A stretch of DNA of 64,000 bases. It comes from Sulfurimonas sp. Lineage in GTDB: Bacteria; Campylobacterota; Campylobacteria; Campylobacterales; Sulfurimonadaceae. The notes under the pieces are model-generated. The model did no database searches. It saw nothing but the letters and a program-made list of their open reading frames with translations, and had not been told where the DNA came from. The stretch lies in assembly GCA_021732045.1 (NCBI GenBank), contig JAKFWK010000002.1, positions 186,001 through 250,000 on the forward strand. Reading direction: 5' to 3'. Both the position numbers and the translations under genes were made by a program. Shown in pieces: positions 6,503-55,021 of this stretch (positions within the stretch are counted from its first letter, which is position 1; every line of letters begins with the position of its first letter).

Positions 6503-7561
6503 ATGATTGATTACCAAAGCATCAAACCTTGGCTTTTTAAACTAGAGCCTGAAAACGCTCATAAACTGGCAGAATTCGCTCTTAGGGTGCCAAATGTTTG
6601 CCAGATTCCTTTTAACTCATTTTTAGGGTCTCATTTCATCACAAACAGCGTTTTAACACAAGAGCTTTTTGGTCGTACATTTTTAAATCCTATTGGACTT
6701 GGTGCTGGGTTTGACAAAAATGCCACCATGATTCGCGGTATGCAGATTTTGGGTTTTGGTTTTACTGAGATTGGCACTGTTACGCCTAAACCTCAAAATG
6801 GAAATCCAAAACCTAGAATGTTTCGTCATATTGACGAAGAGAGCATCCAAAATGCTATGGGATTCAACAATGAAGGGCTTTTGGAAGTAAAAAAGAGACT
6901 GGAAAAAAGGTTTCCTTTTACAACTCCAATCGGCATAAACATTGGAAAAAACAAAACGACACTTGATAGTGAAGCAGTAAATGACTATATTTCGTTGATA
7001 GAGGCTCTACACACTCTTGGCGATTATCTGGTTATAAATATCTCCTCTCCAAACACTCCTGGGCTTCGCGACCTGCAAAATGAAGCGTTTATAGCAAAGC
7101 TTTTTCAAGAAGCAAAAGCAATAACTTCAAAGCCAATTCTACTAAAAATAGCACCTGATATGACAGAAGAAGATGCGGTAACGCTTACAAAGCTAGCGGT
7201 TGAGTGCGGTGCAGATGGAATCATCGCTACAAATACGACAGTTGATTACTCACTCGTTAAACACCCAAAAGCTATCGGTGGGCTTAGCGGTGCAGTTTTG
7301 AAAAAGAGAAGTTTTGAGATATTTGAAGCGGTGGCAAAAGAGCTTTATGGAAAAACAGTACTTATCTCAGTTGGCGGGATTGACTCCGCACAAGAGGCAT
7401 ACAAACGCATAAAAGCTGGAGCATCGCTTGTTCAGATATATAGTGGGCTCATATTTCATGGACCTGATATGATAAGAGATATAAATCTTGAACTAACAGA
7501 GTTAATAAAAGCCGATGGGTACGACAACATAACAGAAGCCATAGGCGCTGACAGAAGATGA
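6503..7561 (+). CDS. pyrD: Dihydroorotate dehydrogenase (quinone), class 2
   Basis: Membrane-associated FMN enzyme that oxidises dihydroorotate to orotate in pyrimidine synthesis and passes electrons to quinone. Motifs in order: NPIGLGAGFDKNA, EIGTVTPKPQNGNPKPR, NAMGFNN, the class 2 active-site segment ISSPNTPGLRDLQ with its catalytic Ser, LLKIAPD, IATNTT and the C-terminal FMN phosphate-binding SVGGIDSA and GASLVQIYSGL. The length of 352 residues and the N-terminal helical extension mark class 2 rather than class 1. It starts an operon with the M16 protease gene, overlapping it by 4 bases. Confidence 0.97.
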   Translation: MIDYQSIKPWLFKLEPENAHKLAEFALRVPNVCQIPFNSFLGSHFITNSVLTQELFGRTFLNPIGLGAGFDKNATMIRGMQILGFGFTEIGTVTPKPQNGNPKPRMFRHIDEESIQNAMGFNNEGLLEVKKRLEKRFPFTTPIGINIGKNKTTLDSEAVNDYISLIEALHTLGDYLVINISSPNTPGLRDLQNEAFIAKLFQEAKAITSKPILLKIAPDMTEEDAVTLTKLAVECGADGIIATNTTVDYSLVKHPKAIGGLSGAVLKKRSFEIFEAVAKELYGKTVLISVGGIDSAQEAYKRIKAGASLVQIYSGLIFHGPDMIRDINLELTELIKADGYDNITEAIGADRR

Positions 7562-8859
7562 GACAATTTTTAATTTATATACTAATTTCAGGAGCCTTAA
7601 TGGCATCATCACTACCAAAATATGAGACGAAAACTCTAGAAAATGGCTTGCAGATAGTTGTAATTCCGCTACAAAACAACACAAATGTTATCAGTACAGA
7701 TATATTTTATAAAGTTGGTAGCAGAAATGAGGTTATGGGCAAAACAGGCATAGCACATATGCTTGAGCATATGAACTTCAAATCCACTAAAAACCTTTCT
7801 GCTGGGGAGTTTGATAAAGAAGTTAAGAGTATGGGCGGAGTCAATAATGCTTCAACAAGTTTTGACTACACTCACTACTACATAAAATCAAGCAGTGACA
7901 ATCTTGGAAAATCTCTAAAACTTTACGCAGAACTTATGCAAAATCTAAATCTAAAAGACAAAGAGTTTCAACCTGAACGCAATGTTGTAGCAGAAGAGCG
8001 CAGATGGAGAACTGAAAACTCTCCACTTGGATATCTCTACTTTGCAATGTTTAATAACGCTTACACTTACCATCCATACCACTGGACACCAATTGGATTC
8101 ATGAACGATATCCAAACTTGGACACTAAAAGATATAAAAGATTTTCACAAAACTTACTATCAGCCAAACAACGCAGTACTTATGATAACTGGTGATGTTA
8201 AGCCAAAAGATGTATTTAAAAAAGCAGAAAAAGAGTTTGGCGGTATCAAAAACAGAGTAAAAATTCCTGAAGTTAAGTTTATAGAACCTGAGCAAAATGG
8301 TCCAAAAAGAGCAATAATCTACAAAGAGAGTGAAGTTGAGATGTTAGCTATAACTTTTCATATTCCAAACTTTAAAAGTAAAGATCAAGTCACTCTAAGT
8401 GTGATTTCCGAGATTCTTTTCTCTGGAAAAAGCTCAAGACTATACAAAGAACTCATAGATAAAAAACGCCTTGTAAACAGCATCTATGCTTACAATATGC
8501 AAAATATTGACCCAGGTTTGTTTATATTTTTAGCATCGTGTAACCCAGATGTAAAAGTCGAAGATGTTGAAAAAGAGATAATCGCGCAGATAGAACTTAT
8601 CAAAAATGAAAATGTTGAATTAAGCGAGATTGAAAAGGTAAAAATCAACACAAAATCTGATTTTATATACTCGCTTGAGGGTTCAACTTCTGTAGCGGAA
8701 CTCTTTGGAAGCTATCTTGTCAGAGGAGATTTAACACCGCTTTTAACATATGAAGATGCTATAGAGAAGATAACAGTTAAAGATGTGAAAGAGGCTGCAA
8801 ATAAGTACTTTGACTTTAGTAAATCAACAACGCTAATTTTGAAAAAAGGCAAAAAATGA
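7558..8859 (+). CDS. M16-family zinc peptidase, exported
   Basis: A 433-residue pitrilysin/processing-peptidase family protein with an N-terminal signal-like hydrophobic segment (residues 1-18), so probably periplasmic. The inverted zinc motif HMLEH (HxxEH) is at about residue 65, with the distal glutamate expected in the NVVAEERRW segment near 140, both intact. M16 peptidases degrade short peptides; the substrate is unknown. It overlaps pyrD and dapA by 4 bases each, so it is translated within the pyrD-dapA-fabL operon. Confidence 0.9.
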   Translation: MRQFLIYILISGALMASSLPKYETKTLENGLQIVVIPLQNNTNVISTDIFYKVGSRNEVMGKTGIAHMLEHMNFKSTKNLSAGEFDKEVKSMGGVNNASTSFDYTHYYIKSSSDNLGKSLKLYAELMQNLNLKDKEFQPERNVVAEERRWRTENSPLGYLYFAMFNNAYTYHPYHWTPIGFMNDIQTWTLKDIKDFHKTYYQPNNAVLMITGDVKPKDVFKKAEKEFGGIKNRVKIPEVKFIEPEQNGPKRAIIYKESEVEMLAITFHIPNFKSKDQVTLSVISEILFSGKSSRLYKELIDKKRLVNSIYAYNMQNIDPGLFIFLASCNPDVKVEDVEKEIIAQIELIKNENVELSEIEKVKINTKSDFIYSLEGSTSVAELFGSYLVRGDLTPLLTYEDAIEKITVKDVKEAANKYFDFSKSTTLILKKGKK

Positions 8860-45580: not shown

Positions 45581-45703
45581 CTTTATTCTGGTGATGATAT
45601 TCTCAAAGCGATTATTTTAAACACAAAAGACTTTCATTTTAAAAACAATTTTACATAAGTGGCAGTGAAATTCTAAAATCTCAACTATCTTGTTTTTTTT
45701 GTA

Positions 45704-46300
45704 TCAAATCTTTATAATATGATGATTTGGTATTGCATTATTTTTATCTGCACCTGTATTATAAACTGTAGTATTACCAATTTTATCTATTTTATCTAAT
45801 GGATAGTGCATATGCCCACACAACAAAACTTTTGGTTTTAAAATCTTTTTTTGAAGAAGTCTTGCTACCTCTTTGTCTCCCCAATCTGCGTTGGTTTCAC
45901 TATGTATCGCTGTTTTTGATTGAGCAGGTGGCAGATGATACAAAAGAATATCGCATTTATCAAACTCAAAAAAATCTGGGGCAATATAAGGAACACAACC
46001 AAAGTTAACCCCATTTATGGTTTTGATACTATTATCACTATAAACATTGGGTATCTGATTGAGCCAATTTTCGTTTTCAAGTTCTTCTATATCATGATTT
46101 CCGCTACATACAAATAAAGGTTTTTGGAAACTTTTCATCCAGTTTGTTATCCACTCTATTTGTTCCAAAAGTGTTTCATCTTTTGAGCTTTCCAAAAAAT
46201 CCCCAGTGATGCAAAATACATCATAGTTATTTTGCTGTGAAGCTATCCAAGTAAACCAGTTTTTATTGAAATGCAAATCTGTAGTATGGAGAATTTTCAT
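45704..46300 (-). CDS. Calcineurin-like metallophosphoesterase
   Basis: A 198-residue enzyme with all five metal-binding blocks of the family in order: DLHFN (residue 7), GDF (33), GNHDIEE (63), LLYHLPPAQS (120) and CGHMHYPLD (155). These hold the two-metal site, so activity is expected on a phosphodiester or phosphomonoester; the substrate could be DNA, RNA or a nucleotide. It starts 3 bases after the stop of the FtsZ C-terminal-domain gene and is therefore in the same operon. Confidence 0.9.
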   Translation of the reverse strand: MKILHTTDLHFNKNWFTWIASQQNNYDVFCITGDFLESSKDETLLEQIEWITNWMKSFQKPLFVCSGNHDIEELENENWLNQIPNVYSDNSIKTINGVNFGCVPYIAPDFFEFDKCDILLYHLPPAQSKTAIHSETNADWGDKEVARLLQKKILKPKVLLCGHMHYPLDKIDKIGNTTVYNTGADKNNAIPNHHIIKI

Positions 46301-46303
46301 TTA

Positions 46304-46633
46304 TTAAGCCATCCCCGTAGCAATTATTTTGAATTTTATTGACTCTTTTTCAATAGTATCGTTTTGTTTTGTACCAAATATAACATCAGCATCTTCGCCA
46401 ATAAAGTCGCAAAGCTCCTCCATCAAAGATGAAATGATGGTTAATGGTGCATCACTGTGTTGCTCAAATTCTATCAATACACCTTTTGCATTTTTAAGAG
46501 AAAGTTTCAAGTTCTCACTCAAACTACTTATAAATTCACTAGCACTACAACTGCAAACAAACCCTTTAATTTTTCCTTTATGTGAGAGTATTGTTTGATA
46601 ATCTGCAAAATCTATATTAATATCATTTTGCAT
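46304..46633 (-). CDS. Stand-alone FtsZ C-terminal domain protein
   Basis: A 109-residue protein matching the second domain of FtsZ from its start. It opens with NDINIDFADYQTIL, the T7 synergy loop: Asn6, Asp8 and Asp11 correspond to the N-x-D-x2-D residues that reach into the GTP site of the next subunit. It ends with DADVIFGT and IKFKIIATGM, the classic closing strands. It lacks both the GTPase domain and the C-terminal FtsA/ZipA-binding tail. The start at ATG 46633 overlaps the GIY-YIG stop by 11 bases; the frame is open to 46693. The matching GTPase domain is encoded at 47768-48271. Confidence 0.87.
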   Translation of the reverse strand: MQNDINIDFADYQTILSHKGKIKGFVCSCSASEFISSLSENLKLSLKNAKGVLIEFEQHSDAPLTIISSLMEELCDFIGEDADVIFGTKQNDTIEKESIKFKIIATGMA

Positions 46634-47405
46634 TACTTGTTGCTTTGTTTTGATATTTTTTAATTTCTTGAATAATAATGTTTTGTTCCCCATATAAACT
46701 TAAATAAAACCATTCTTCATTGTCGATTATTTTATAAGGCTCGAATTTTTGATTGATTTTTTTTGTTGATGCTAAAATAAGAGTTGTATTATTATTCCAC
46801 AATTCATATTCTAAACCAAACCAGATATCATCACTTATAAAAAAACCATAACCATCTTCCTCATTATATATTTTGCTTTTTTCTACTTTTAGCTCTTCTG
46901 CTATAGATTCAATCAATGTATAAATTTTGTGTTCTTTTGTGAATGCTGTTGTAGAGATTTCTTTAGACAAGCTTCTAAATGTTCCTAAATTTATAACTCT
47001 ATAATTCTCATCTGCAAATTTTAATGAATTTATATTAGATGAATTTTTAGCTGGAGCATGATAGTGAATCAATAATGATTCTGCTTTGCTTATATCTTCT
47101 AATGCATCATTATGAAGTAAGGCATCATCATAATATATCTTACCAAGATAAATTTGAACATTATCTGCATCCTGATTATATTCAATTACGCTTCTTCCGT
47201 TGAGTCTTTCCAAAAACTTTTGTTCTGTCTTACCTATATATATTAAAACATTATCTCCATAAATAGGATGTGCACCATATATTTGATACAAACCAAAATC
47301 TGTCGGCTTAACAGCAAATTTTTTAGTTTCTATTCTATTTTCGTTATAATTAACTACATCTTCATAAGTATATGGACCGCTCCATTCTACATATATTTCT
47401 TCCAT
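46623..47405 (-). CDS. GIY-YIG family nuclease
   Basis: A 260-residue protein whose central part carries a GIY-YIG nuclease domain: GLYQIYG and VLIYIGKTE for the two strands, FLERLNGR with the catalytic Arg, then KAESLLIHYHAPAKNSSN with the metal-binding Glu and the final Asn. All catalytic positions are present. The flanks (residues 1-30 and 150-260) are unassigned and may give specificity. It sits between the two FtsZ-piece genes and overlaps the C-terminal-domain gene by 11 bases, so nuclease and FtsZ piece are co-translated. Confidence 0.82.
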   Translation of the reverse strand: MEEIYVEWSGPYTYEDVVNYNENRIETKKFAVKPTDFGLYQIYGAHPIYGDNVLIYIGKTEQKFLERLNGRSVIEYNQDADNVQIYLGKIYYDDALLHNDALEDISKAESLLIHYHAPAKNSSNINSLKFADENYRVINLGTFRSLSKEISTTAFTKEHKIYTLIESIAEELKVEKSKIYNEEDGYGFFISDDIWFGLEYELWNNNTTLILASTKKINQKFEPYKIIDNEEWFYLSLYGEQNIIIQEIKKYQNKATSNAK

Positions 47406-47452
47406 TCTGAATTCTCCTTTTTTTAATTAATTTCTTTAGTTTCAGATTCAAG

Positions 47453-47704
47453 TCATTTAACAATTTTGCACTCATGACACCTCTTTACTTTAGGCATTAC
47501 GCAAGAACCCGTAAGTCTCAAATATTTATTGGAACTGTTTTTCAGCTCTTCATGTAAAGACCAAAATTTTTTCATATTTGCTCTTCTTAGAGCAGGACGC
47601 ATAAACCTTTGTTTAAAAGCTTTTTTTTGTCTTCCTTGAAAACGGTACTTGTTAAATTTATAGAGCAAAATTCTTGCAAGTAGTCTGTAATACACTCTAT
47701 TCAT
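47453..47704 (-). CDS. Small basic protein with Cys pair
   Basis: An 83-residue, strongly basic protein (many Arg and Lys: RFQGRQKKAFKQRFMRPALR). A C-terminal CVMPKVKRCHEC gives three cysteines with a C-x2-C pair, which could bind a metal or nucleic acid. A good AAGGAT site precedes the ATG. I do not recognise the family. It lies between the FtsZ GTPase-domain gene and the GIY-YIG gene, on the same strand. Confidence 0.65.
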   Translation of the reverse strand: MNRVYYRLLARILLYKFNKYRFQGRQKKAFKQRFMRPALRRANMKKFWSLHEELKNSSNKYLRLTGSCVMPKVKRCHECKIVK

Positions 47705-47767
47705 GGCATCATCCTTATAGCAATATGCAAAGCATATACAACATGAATTTTGATTTATAACATTAAT

Positions 47768-48271
47768 TTAGCATTTATCGGCAAGAATATACTCACAAAT
47801 TTGCTTATCCATCCGCTTAAAAGTTTCTTGGATTGGCGCACCGTCTTGAGTAATTTTAAGCAGCTCATTATTGTCATAAATTTTGTATTTTATACCAATT
47901 GGATCCAATTGGCAAATCACTTCATCGGCAAGCTCTTTTTTTAATCTTGCCTCCCAACTAAATGGTTTGATTAAAATCACTTGAATTTCTAAATCATATT
48001 TCTTTTTCATATATAAAATCAGCGGCAACAATGATTTACTGCTACCTCCACCAAGACCATTTAATATAACAATCGATTTTGCAATGATTAAATACTTATC
48101 TAGTTCTTCAAAATCTGACTCTATGCTTAACTTATTTTGAACATTACAACACTCTAATGCCTTCGCATCATCCGACATTGCAACGAGAGCGAAGTACTCA
48201 CTCAATAACTCTTTTTGTCCTTGTAAAAAGTTTAGCCCAACCCCACCAAATCCTATAATCAATTTTTTCAT
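47768..48271 (-). CDS. Stand-alone FtsZ-like GTPase domain protein
   Basis: A 167-residue protein that matches the N-terminal GTPase domain of FtsZ. The T1 loop is IGFGGVGLN (residues 6-14), T2 is SDDAKAL (33-39), the tubulin-signature T4 loop is GLGGGSSKS (72-80, with GGGSSKS in place of GGGTGTG), then IKPFSWEARLKK (101-112) and the T6 base-contact region DNNELLKI (133-140), ending in a helix like H7. The T3 loop is shortened. The protein stops where FtsZ would go on into the T7 loop, which a separate gene (46304-46633) supplies. ATG 48271 has AAAGGA 6 bases upstream. GTP binding is likely; hydrolysis is uncertain. Confidence 0.85.
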   Translation of the reverse strand: MKKLIIGFGGVGLNFLQGQKELLSEYFALVAMSDDAKALECCNVQNKLSIESDFEELDKYLIIAKSIVILNGLGGGSSKSLLPLILYMKKKYDLEIQVILIKPFSWEARLKKELADEVICQLDPIGIKYKIYDNNELLKITQDGAPIQETFKRMDKQICEYILADKC

Positions 48272-48370
48272 ATTCTGTCCTTTCAATTACATACAACACC
48301 TATTGAAAAAAATAACATCTATAGTGTAAAAAATCTCAACTCATACAATTATGTTTCATTTTTACCCAAT

Positions 48371-49477
48371 TTACCTATTACACCAAAACTCAAACAACGG
48401 ATCAGCAAAATAATACCCATCACTATTTTTATCGATGATATCTTTTTGCACAAGTCCGTTGAGTGCTGTCTGAAATGAGCCTGATTTGATTTGGTATTTG
48501 GCTAAGTATTGCTCATCATAGAGTGATTTTCCCTCTTTTTCAAGAACTATTTTTAGAGCTTTTTTTTGATTTGGTGTGAGGTTATCCCACTCAACTGCAA
48601 AGAGGTCTTCCTCCCTTTCTATTATAATTTTAAGAGTTTTTTCAAAAATATCATCATCCACTTTTATTTCGCATTGGTTCCATAACTCATAGGCAAATTG
48701 TTGTGTATAGTATGGAAACCCTTTGGTAAACTCAAATATTTTATCTATATAAATCTCATCTATCTCTTTGATTGTCGCTTTAAATTTTGAAGTGATAAAC
48801 TCACTCCATGACTTTTTTTGTATCTCTTTGATTTTAAAGTGTTTTACTGATTTATAAAATGGTCTATTTTTGTCTAAAAACATCGCATGAAGTAAAGATT
48901 TCTTACTTCCCATAAAGATGTAGCTTACTTTATCACTGTGGTGTTGGATGACACTTCGCATCTTTGCTTCAAGGTCGAAGTTTGCTATCTCTTGAAATTC
49001 ATCAAATATCACTACTATTTTTTGTCCCTCTTTTGCAAAGGCTAGAGGGATATTTAGTACATCTTCTAAAGCTTTTGTTCTATCTTCATTGTTTAGTGCC
49101 AGTGAAAAGCTTGGATTTCCGGTTGCATCAAAATTTACATTGATATTTGGACGAAGGTTTAAAACACTTTTGAAAAAGTTCACTATTTTATCGGTTGGCT
49201 CTTCTAGGCTTTTGGCTAAGACATTAAAATATTTATTGATAAATTCATCGAGAGTTGAGAGATACATCAAATCCAAAAATACATATTTTACTTTTTCCTC
49301 TTTTAGCTCTTCCATTGTTTTGAGTACAAAAGATGTTTTACCAAATCTTCTTGGGGCATATATTAGAGTATTTAGTCCTGCATTTACATCGATTTTCAGC
49401 TCTTTTATCTCATCAATTCGATTACAAAAATGAACACTGCTAACAGCTCCACCGTAATAAAAAGGGTTTTTAATCAT
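48371..49477 (-). CDS. AAA ATPase with C-terminal winged helix (archaeal ATPase type)
   Basis: A 368-residue protein of the ATPase_2/archaeal-type P-loop group. It begins NPFYYGGAVSSVHFCNR, has Walker A APRRFGKTSFVLK near residue 42, Walker B KIVVIFDEFQEI near 153, a sensor YIFMGSKKS, and a C-terminal winged helix (LTPNQKKALKIVLEKEG; LAKYQIKSGSFQTAL). Such proteins occur in mobile elements and in toxin- or nuclease-linked loci; their targets are unknown. It is upstream of the FtsZ GTPase-domain gene, 99 bases away, on the same strand. Confidence 0.85.
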   Translation of the reverse strand: MIKNPFYYGGAVSSVHFCNRIDEIKELKIDVNAGLNTLIYAPRRFGKTSFVLKTMEELKEEKVKYVFLDLMYLSTLDEFINKYFNVLAKSLEEPTDKIVNFFKSVLNLRPNINVNFDATGNPSFSLALNNEDRTKALEDVLNIPLAFAKEGQKIVVIFDEFQEIANFDLEAKMRSVIQHHSDKVSYIFMGSKKSLLHAMFLDKNRPFYKSVKHFKIKEIQKKSWSEFITSKFKATIKEIDEIYIDKIFEFTKGFPYYTQQFAYELWNQCEIKVDDDIFEKTLKIIIEREEDLFAVEWDNLTPNQKKALKIVLEKEGKSLYDEQYLAKYQIKSGSFQTALNGLVQKDIIDKNSDGYYFADPLFEFWCNR

Positions 49478-52933: not shown

Positions 52934-55021
52934 ATGACAGCCATTCAATCAAATTTACTAGAATTTATATCAAAGTCTTCACAATTCGTCATTCCAATTT
53001 ATCAAAGAACTTATAGCTGGACTGAAAATGAATGTTTACAATTATGGAAAGATATATTAAGAGCAGGAAAAAATAATCAAATAGGGGCTCACTTTATTGG
53101 TTCTGTTGTTTATGTCCAGGATGGGCAATACTCTGTAACAGCACAATCGCCACTTTTAGTTATAGATGGTCAACAAAGGCTTACAACGGTTACACTGCTT
53201 TTAACTGCACTATCCGATTTATTAGACGATGAGCAAGAAATAATAGATGGTTTTTCAAAAGAACAATTAAAAGATTTTTATCTTATGGATCCTAGAAAAA
53301 AAGATAACAAAAAATATAAACTTATCTTATCTCAAACAGACAAAGACACTTTAATAGCCCTTATTGATAAAAGCAAAGTAAATTTCCCAAAAGATTATTC
53401 TCTTAGAGTAAAAGTAAATTATGAGTTTTTTAAAAAGAAACTGGCTGAAAATATAGATGAACTTGAAACTATTTGTAAAGGTATAGCTAAACTACTAATT
53501 GTAGATATATCACTTGATAGACAATATGATAATCCTCAATTAATTTTTGAAAGCATGAACTCAACAGGTAAAGAGCTAACTCAAGCAGATTTAATCAGAA
53601 ATTACATTCTGATGGGATTAGAACATGACCTTCAATCAAGACTCTACGAAGAGTATTGGCGACCGATGGAGCTTGATTTTGGACAAGAAGCATATCAGAC
53701 ATATTTTGATGCTTTTATGAGGCATTATCTCACTGTAAAAACCAAAGAAATTCCGAAAATAGATAGTATTTATGAAGCATTTAAAAAATATCATAGAGAA
53801 GAAAATCTATCTATAGAATCATTGGTATCAGATATCAGAGCTTATTCTCAATATTTTTGTAAAATGGCATTAGGGCAAGAAGAAGATAAAGAGTTATCTT
53901 ATGCTTTCAAAGATTTAAAAGAATTAAAAGTCGATGTTGCATATCCATTATTATTAGAGCTTTATGATGATTATGAAAACAATCATTTATCTAAAGATGA
54001 TTTTGAAAAAGCTATTAGATTAATAGAAAGTTATGTATTTAGAAGAGCAGTTTGTGCAATTCCTACCAATTCACTTAACAAAACATTTGCAAATTTTACA
54101 AAATCAATCAAAAAAGATAGATATTTAGAGAGTATTCAAGCTACATTTATGCTTTTAACATCTTATAAGAAGTTTCCAACAGATGATGAATTTAAAATAC
54201 ATTTATCATCAAAAGATCTTTATAACTTCAGAAATAGAAGTTATTGGCTTAGAAGATTAGAGAATTTTGGTAGAAAAGAGAGAGTTAATGTCAATGATTA
54301 TACGATTGAACATATTATGCCTCAAAATGAAAACCTATCACAAGAGTGGAAAAATACTTTAGGAGAAAACTGGCAAGATATTCAAGCTCAATGGCTTCAT
54401 ACATTAGGAAACTTAACTCTTACAGGATATAACTCTGAGTATAGCGATAAACCTTTTGAAGAAAAAAGAGATATGGAGGGTGGTTTTGCTAAAAGTCCTC
54501 TCAAGCTAAATGAGTATTTGAGAGATTCAAATCTTATTTGGAATGAAGATGCTATAAAAAGTAGAGCTAGTATTTTATCAAATCAAGCAGCCAATGTATG
54601 GGTTAGTCCAAAACTTGAAACATCTATTTTAGAGACTTATAAAGCACCTAAAATTTCAAATAGTAATTATACTATTGATGATCATCCAAACCTTTTAAAA
54701 ACTCAAAATAAAAAGCTTTTTGAAGAATTTAGAAAAGAGGTATTGTCTTTAGACTCAAATGTAACTGAGGAATTTTTAAAACTCTATATAGCTTATAAAG
54801 CTGAAACAAATTTTGTAGATATAGTTCCGCAAGCAAATAGTTTAAAACTTTATGTAAACATCGCACTAAATGAACTAGAAGATCCAAAAAAACTTGGAAG
54901 AGATGTATCAAATGTAGGAACTTGGGGCAATGGGGATACTGAAGTAATATTAAACTCTATAGATGAAATTCCATATATCATAGGCTTAGTAAGACAAGCT
55001 TTTGAAAAACAATTTGAGTAA
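52934..55021 (+). CDS. DUF262-DUF1524 (GmrSD-like) nuclease with DUF5655-like tail
   Basis: A 695-residue protein with the two-part plan of GmrSD type IV restriction enzymes. DUF262 at the N-terminus has VIPIYQRTYSW, HFIGSVVY and the nucleotide-site block LVIDGQQRLTTVTLLL (residues about 14-95). DUF1524 follows near residue 455 with the His-Me finger region YTIEHIMPQN, then LHTLGNLTLTGYNSEYSD. The C-terminal 110 residues resemble DUF5655. GmrSD enzymes cut glucosyl-hydroxymethylcytosine DNA; the target here is unknown. It is in operon with hsdR. Confidence 0.88.
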   Translation: MTAIQSNLLEFISKSSQFVIPIYQRTYSWTENECLQLWKDILRAGKNNQIGAHFIGSVVYVQDGQYSVTAQSPLLVIDGQQRLTTVTLLLTALSDLLDDEQEIIDGFSKEQLKDFYLMDPRKKDNKKYKLILSQTDKDTLIALIDKSKVNFPKDYSLRVKVNYEFFKKKLAENIDELETICKGIAKLLIVDISLDRQYDNPQLIFESMNSTGKELTQADLIRNYILMGLEHDLQSRLYEEYWRPMELDFGQEAYQTYFDAFMRHYLTVKTKEIPKIDSIYEAFKKYHREENLSIESLVSDIRAYSQYFCKMALGQEEDKELSYAFKDLKELKVDVAYPLLLELYDDYENNHLSKDDFEKAIRLIESYVFRRAVCAIPTNSLNKTFANFTKSIKKDRYLESIQATFMLLTSYKKFPTDDEFKIHLSSKDLYNFRNRSYWLRRLENFGRKERVNVNDYTIEHIMPQNENLSQEWKNTLGENWQDIQAQWLHTLGNLTLTGYNSEYSDKPFEEKRDMEGGFAKSPLKLNEYLRDSNLIWNEDAIKSRASILSNQAANVWVSPKLETSILETYKAPKISNSNYTIDDHPNLLKTQNKKLFEEFRKEVLSLDSNVTEEFLKLYIAYKAETNFVDIVPQANSLKLYVNIALNELEDPKKLGRDVSNVGTWGNGDTEVILNSIDEIPYIIGLVRQAFEKQFE

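Follow-up and report, generated by a model that had tools for sequence, protein, structure and literature searches.

To our knowledge, all known FtsZ/tubulin proteins other than those of the FtsZl1 type carry both domains on one chain. FtsZl1 and FtsZl2 are divergent accessory FtsZ-like GTPases (Makarova and Koonin 2010, PMC2875224), and FtsZl1 is the closest earlier example of a GTPase half that lacks the FtsZ C-terminal domain; in the passages of that account cited here, the FtsZl1 C-terminal domain is described as without detected similarity to its FtsZ counterpart, and an FtsZ C-terminal domain encoded as a separate gene is not reported. FtsZl1 contains a coiled coil together with a C-terminal domain that is helical, and its partners are of the vWA or kinase type (PMC2875224), whereas the N-terminal half presented here ends at H7 and no vWA match was found among 10 scanned proteins of the window, by which we mean the whole 64,000-nucleotide stretch of Sulfurimonas sp. 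DNA that was analysed. FtsZ itself (TIGR00065, PF00091 plus PF12327) shares with the window proteins both domain folds and the T1 and T4-T7 positions, but in the window these are spread over two chains, with no T3 and no C-terminal linker or tail, and are encoded by accessory island genes.

A different kind of comparison is with proteins that inhibit FtsZ. CbtA, SulA, MciZ, Kil and Gp0.4 are not known to share a fold with FtsZ, whereas the window proteins are FtsZ's own halves. These inhibitors are small proteins acting at FtsZ interfaces (PMC5624674, PMC13423816), and interface action is also proposed here for the halves. CapRel-Ebc reads the complex of FtsZ with Gp0.4 of phage T7, which is predicted to bind at the synergy-loop surface (PMC13423816); as described there, FtsZ is part of an immune trigger, but host FtsZ is used and no FtsZ part is encoded. 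NTP-dependent conflict systems include rare FtsZ/tubulin homologs as effector domains, and calcineurin-type phosphoesterases are common in them (PMC7159879). Our locus likewise holds FtsZ-superfamily and phosphoesterase domains of the kind found in biological conflict, but the cited parts of that survey contain no half-FtsZ pair, and the MoxR-vWA/GTPase-system core genes were not seen in the window operon. DriD, a WYL regulator, activates the division inhibitor DidA (PMC4211646), and WYL proteins co-localise with phage defence islands (PMC9122601). A search of the open-access literature found no paper on a two-gene FtsZ or on orphan FtsZ C-domains, which is not proof of absence, and none under the name PDC-S10, the PADLOC candidate that the window phosphoesterase resembles.

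The window locus

Two intact genes encode both structural halves of FtsZ within one run of closely spaced genes in an island. All genes of the run lie on the minus strand, in the order AAA ATPase (ATPase_2; 48371..49477), FtsZ-N half or GTPase domain (47768..48271), a basic ORF of 83 amino acids that is in frame with FtsZ-N (47453..47704), a 260-aa protein (46623..47405), FtsZ-C half with the full C-terminal domain (46304..46633), and a calcineurin-like metallophosphoesterase (MPE, PF00149; 45704..46300). The ATPase gene ends 99 nt upstream of the N-half ATG, and we infer that it belongs to the operon. The gaps that follow are 63 and 47 nt, then an 11-nt overlap between the 260-aa gene and FtsZ-C, and 3 nt between FtsZ-C and MPE. 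The initial annotation had the two ORFs, their strand and their products of 167 and 109 amino acids right; its spacing of about 1.1 kb with genes between also stands (1,134 nt, holding the ORFs at 47453-47704 and 46623-47405), with the correction that the halves are part of a longer close-gene run.

The 260-aa protein displays GIY-YIG-like residues by eye and has no Pfam match. The 83-aa ORF gave no match in a tblastn search of 23 loci. The stop between FtsZ-N and this ORF (window 47453-47770) is missing in the database relatives P0018 and P0025, in which N reads on into the ORF. A self-splicing intron with a homing gene between the halves was also considered. Rfam detected no group I or group II intron in 45600-48400, with just five weak matches, to snoRNA or miRNA, and in relatives the start of the C-half is separate and conserved; the intron reading was therefore dropped.

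An integrase gene (PF00589; 41134..42324, minus strand) is taken as the island edge, and its product clusters with the integrases of loci L040, L043 and L051. A GmrSD-type gene (52934-55021) lies in the same island as the operon, and the segment 52934-61837 holds, besides this gene, type I restriction-like genes recognized by eye. Among seven window proteins compared with PADLOC, MPE matched PDC-S10 (3.4e-14) and PDC-S60, and the upstream ATPase weakly matched mad8; the other five, FtsZ-N and FtsZ-C among them, had no match, and the full gene set of a named system was not found. Neither half matched PHROG; TubZ/PhuZ systems for segregation or the phage spindle use a full-length tubulin-like chain together with an adaptor and a centromere. 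The window operon has no WYL gene.

Identity of the two halves

The N-half product is 167 amino acids long from its ATG (172 from an upstream TTG) and matches PF00091 with an E-value of 3.8e-5 and 24.5 bits, under the curated cutoff of 33. That cutoff is reached by its relatives in L042 (45.5 bits), L039 (33.3) and L081 (89.4). The C-half, of 109 amino acids from its ATG (129 from an upstream ATG), passes the PF12327 cutoff of 27 (1.5e-8, 35.2 bits). On the NCBIfam ftsZ profile the matches are consecutive, with N at positions 90-197 (3e-11) and C at 207-324 (6.5e-12). The TIGR00065 equivalog describes one chain scoring at least 295 bits, and the halves score 43.2 and 45.4 bits. The AlphaFold2 models reach pLDDT values of 90 (N) and 82 (C); the best Foldseek match of each is FtsZ (3.8e-11 and 5.9e-8); all 50 matches listed per half are FtsZ, as are the PDB matches listed. 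The profile check suggested by the initial annotation thus succeeded for C and gave a sub-cutoff match for N, and Pfam and NCBIfam profiles, AlphaFold2 models and Foldseek agree with its claim of complementary FtsZ domains on two genes.

Loop names on the alignment are those we take to be T1-T7. Aligned to host FtsZ, the window N-half keeps T1 (GFGGVGLN), T5 (KPFSWE), T6 (YDNN) and H7; T4 (GLGGGSS) is altered and T3 is missing. In the model the chain stops in a helix at the H7 position. The C-half starts at the T7 loop (NIDFAD) and keeps its Asp pair. To the loops first assigned to the pair, the absence of T3 has to be added. T3 is absent also from the N-halves of L039, L040 and L042; it is kept in the membrane-anchored L081 protein and in P0033. 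Across the aligned orphan C rows the second T7 Asp is present in 10 of 10 and the first in 7 of 10, the three losses being in L042, L052 and L085.

Both halves have accessory half-FtsZ relatives in the phylum. A database search with the N-half found 8 proteins, and a profile of 7 N rows extended this to 42, including N-only proteins of 158-174 amino acids with about 30% identity as well as longer proteins; further down, the list includes proteins carrying both domains of FtsZ and entries that bear the FtsZ name. The N-only relatives end after H7 like the window protein, except for L082 N, which extends beyond. The window N-half matched 12 of 13 full FtsZ proteins of the phylum, taken as host copies, at 25-31% identity. 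The C-half search returned 17 proteins, counting the window's own and fragments; 12 of these have 109-110 amino acids, 13 share a common start, and they show 55-84% identity to window C, as against 32-41% between window C and the thirteen full FtsZ proteins of the phylum, again taken as host copies. The score of other C-halves with PF12327 varies: the second frame of L081 C reaches 35.7 bits, L042 (19.4), L009 and L052 fall under the cutoff of 27, and those of L044 and L085 have no match and rest on a custom profile. For L044 the NCBIfam ftsZ match is 0.032, and the custom profile gave 9e-14 before this sequence was itself included. The C-halves of L042, L081 and L085 start about 35-50 residues ahead of T7 and others start at T7, so that the split point is not uniform.

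A set of membrane-anchored FtsZ GTPase halves that end after H7 was also observed, comprising the L081 protein (6941-7714; genome G010) and P0033, P0034 and P0036, which share 42-46% identity with it. Near the N terminus each of the four has a hydrophobic segment (Kyte-Doolittle 2.57-2.73 across a 19-residue span), and each has a T3-like segment in the alignment, which P0036 keeps less well than the others. A profile of these four rows matches in 8 of 387 genomes at 1e-30, with the anchor covered in G010 only; the frames are short in G106 and G014, and those of the other five genomes have 383-393 amino acids. Another variant, in L084 (6301-7227), is a 308-aa protein with an FtsZ-N-like start (profile 3.5e-13) and a different C-terminal part. 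In L096 (2078-7496) an N-half gene lies within a prophage-like stretch with a terminase-like gene recognized by eye, and a double-AAA gene is found 5 kb away.

Matches of P0033 lie in 19 plasmid records, of which 13 are annotated as FtsZ at the match and 6 are not, and in four phage records. Among plasmids the window N-half had no match, and the window C-half matched at one place, an annotated ftsZ of a Campylobacter jejuni plasmid (NZ_CP048757.1, 23859-24473) that P0033 also matches; the L009 C-half had no match. A phage or plasmid origin was considered and set aside, no relative being confirmed in viral_contigs.

Occurrence of the halves in the phylum

Six other N loci with flanking sequence look complete (L039, on a 4.2-kb contig, and L040, L042, L081, L082 and L096), and two more are incomplete (L041 and L043). 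The arrangement N then C, on one strand and within 0.6 kb, recurs in two of the six, so the search for the same pair in relatives, as first proposed, was successful. In L042 (G106) the N-half (1785-2309) is followed by a gene of a small family, X (1336-1650), and by the C-half (816-1262). In L081 (G010) the N-half (6941-7714) is followed by a C-half in two overlapping frames (7938-8234 and 8219-8476). No C-half was found near N in L039, L040, L082 and L096, nor in the whole genome of G350. In G188, N lies on one contig and C-halves lie on two others.

Strong C-half matches (profile A6, 1e-26) are present in 6 of 397 genomes of the phylum, at a cutoff below which weaker C-halves hide among host FtsZ. 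C occurs without N in four g9 genomes of one genus (G089, G244, G263 and G122); each has one N-type match among the matches listed, taken as host FtsZ. Among the matches listed, N is found in at least 5 and C in 6 of the 397 genomes, with 2 in common (p 0.0019), and 5 of the 6 C genomes are also among the 19 with MPE (p 8e-7). These p-values are not relied on, because A6 was partly built from C-halves beside MPE or N and four of the genomes belong to one genus.

Unsplit forms occur as well. In L083 (G362) an unsplit FtsZ paralog of 301 amino acids, lacking T3, comes ahead of X, a protein of the 260-aa family and a WYL regulator. L085 (G265) contains a 337-aa FtsZ paralog with a C-half 5 nt downstream (profile 4e-14) and, 4-6 kb further, a WYL-type regulator and another 260-aa relative; this segment (6566-8016) places a divergent full-length FtsZ paralog directly before a stand-alone FtsZ-C-like gene, with an integrase-like gene ahead. 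A DUF2779 gene (PF11074) adjoins the FtsZ-C-like gene in L052 (5459-7455) and L085 (7585-9612). In L002, a Campylobacterales MAG that was the one other close named relative in the scan of genome contigs and on which the assignment of the phylum to Campylobacterota rests, MPE and C are adjacent in reversed order, and MPE has an in-frame stop. Profile matches were found for both window halves, and relatives are neither degraded throughout nor always fused, but incomplete N copies exist in G128 and G334 and the G010 C-half spans two frames.

Trees and selection

The N tree separates the N-halves, as a single group, from host FtsZ and two paralogs (support 100/99, 11 rows against 16, with the bootstrap not fully settled), and the L083 paralog groups with host FtsZ, apart from the N-halves. 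In the C tree the window-type C-halves form one group (100/99, 6 rows, with a long-branch warning on L047 C), and the G010 C piece falls among full FtsZ. These main trees exclude the L087 host row, the N-halves of L082 and P0031, and the C-halves of P0007, L042, L044, L052 and L085, and include the second frame of L081 C. An earlier tree, with the L087 host row miscut, also joined 13 N-halves including L082 in one group (99/94) and placed L042 C, on a long branch, among host FtsZ.

Since the N and C trees differ, N and C were probably not excised together from one gene, at one time, in all loci, although unequal rates could mimic such a pattern. Of the split FtsZ of the initial annotation, the part that holds is that these are separate, complementary genes with conserved stand-alone relatives; halves that occur alone, the variable start of C and the differing trees speak against a simple division of one gene. 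As the halves occur alone and the trees give them different histories, we regard them as a modular gene set and not as one gene cut once. The four g9 C-halves have dN/dS values of 0.15-0.95 on just 5-17 changes, compared with 0.11-0.24 for their MPE. Their dS is lower (0.02-0.11, against 0.17-0.42 for MPE), which would fit an exchange of the C cassette.

Neighbouring genes

MPE was detected in 19 of 397 genomes at 1e-20. In G089, G244, G263 and G122 a C-half of 105-106 amino acids lies between a WYL regulator and MPE, overlapping the MPE start by 8 nt. The slot between WYL and MPE holds FtsZ-C in L009, L010, L014 and L016 and Fic (PF02661 in the one protein scanned) in L011, L012, L013 and L017, from sibling g9 genomes; this alternation looks as if phosphoesterase partners were being swapped. 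L044 displays the order C, WYL, a 173-aa protein, X, MPE. Turning to C-halves that were not found by way of MPE, L002 has an adjacent MPE, and none was found in the stretches scanned around the C-halves of L042, L052, L081 and L085.

WYL regulators stand beside N in L040 and L082, beside C in L044 and L047, and after the unsplit paralog in L083; 5 of 5 match Pfam WYL, and matches to WCX and to the PADLOC WYL entry were also found. The relatives of the 260-aa protein that follow FtsZ paralogs share 40% (L083, 2e-33) and 38% (L085, 1e-33) identity with it. A GIY-YIG gene as common neighbour, in L044 and L039, was rejected: a joint profile had grouped these proteins, but pairwise BLASTP shows no relation to the window 260-aa protein. 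X is a small family with an NGAxYxI-like core (L042 1336-1650, L044 7726-8166, L046 9046-9549, L083 7508-7828 and L086 999-1340), without a Pfam match in the members scanned, those of L042 and L083. It occurs in 5 of 392 genomes, with an FtsZ-type gene within about 2 kb in G106, G188 and G362, MPE in G333 and neither in G356; the query was built from four of these five genomes. L081 also encodes an IetA-like double-AAA protein, and proteins related to it occur in L083, L002, L046 (a piece), L051 and L096; GmrSD_N proteins are found in the window, L047 and L052. These neighbours are defence- or damage-type genes and favour a defence or damage context.

Proposed function

The halves are almost certainly separate conserved genes and families, and a meaningful link to their recurring neighbours is probable; our confidence in that link was lowered because the GIY-like genes of L044 and L039 showed no relation by BLASTP. 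We predict, with a probability of roughly 0.42, that the operon is a modular conflict unit, for defence or for DNA damage, aimed at the Z ring. We infer action on or through host FtsZ from the defence- and damage-type neighbours together with the precedents of DriD-DidA, WYL in defence, CapRel-Ebc and the conflict systems surveyed in PMC7159879. By analogy with these, the halves might act on host FtsZ, a tentative reading, and that they would arrest division rather than sense its state is doubtful.

The C-half, with a T7 loop bearing the catalytic Asp pair and no nucleotide pocket, would be expected to cap host FtsZ by docking on its exposed GTP face. The N-half, with a pocket-like top face, no T3 and no T7 of its own, would not support elongation; T7 loops of the host may bind to it, or it may form a pair with the C-half. 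Expression of the halves would block division or restrain it, and MPE and the 260-aa protein might meanwhile act on an invader or lift the block. WYL regulators, absent from the window operon, would take part in several sister loci. A speculative extension is a conflict-system family in the phylum, in which a GTPase half, either lacking T3 or anchored in the membrane, and a half that bears T7 bind the two filament ends of host FtsZ or each other, accompanied by a phosphoesterase and in several loci WYL, with the effect that cells facing infection or DNA damage halt or monitor division.

The same genes might instead be baits for phage proteins that block the T7 (synergy) face of FtsZ, with binding to C or between the halves activating a paired enzyme. 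Gp0.4, predicted at the synergy-loop surface, and the reading of its FtsZ complex by CapRel-Ebc (PMC13423816) provide a model for this, window-type C-halves retain T7, and Fic replaces FtsZ-C between WYL and MPE in sibling g9 genomes as if sensor and effector parts were swapped; but a decoy would not require the N-half, and we consider this unlikely. It is quite unlikely that half-FtsZ, MPE, WYL, the 260-aa family and X share islands merely as collected small defence genes, with no common task for N and C. The shuffled order of genes among loci, the finding of each gene without the others, the differing N and C histories and the lack of a demonstrable relationship between the window's GIY-like gene and those of L044 and L039 all fit such a collection, but the N-then-C order, on the same strand and within 0.6 kb, in G106 and G010 does not, each half being rare in the phylum.

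That N and C form one GTPase with its own filament, for segregation of an element or another cytoskeletal task, is improbable, and the plasmid-segregation filament suggested by the initial annotation gained no support. The matches of the two halves follow one another on the FtsZ profile, the split falls at the H7/T7 boundary, the domains of FtsZ fold independently (PMC5624674), and an unsplit T3-less paralog in L083 adjoins relatives of the window neighbours. That paralog, however, groups with host FtsZ and not with the N-halves, window-type N-halves lack T3 and have an altered T4, halves are found alone, and the locus is an integrated island in which, without a dedicated search, no centromere-binding partner was recognized. 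An accessory FtsZ that has broken up and is being lost could explain the incomplete N copies in G128 and G334, the two frames of the G010 C-half and the in-frame stop in the L002 MPE. Such decay is very improbable for genes whose C relatives stand alone with the same start (13 of 17), the same length (12 of 17) and 55-84% identity, whose N relatives end alike at about 30% identity, and whose products both fold confidently in AlphaFold2 models.

On the preferred reading of a conflict unit aimed at the Z ring, the recurrence of half-FtsZ genes in islands may reflect a novel means by which the division ring is jammed or monitored. The naturally parted halves are also a ready test of which FtsZ functions each interface supports alone, and they point to the interfaces of FtsZ as a battleground between bacteria and mobile elements.
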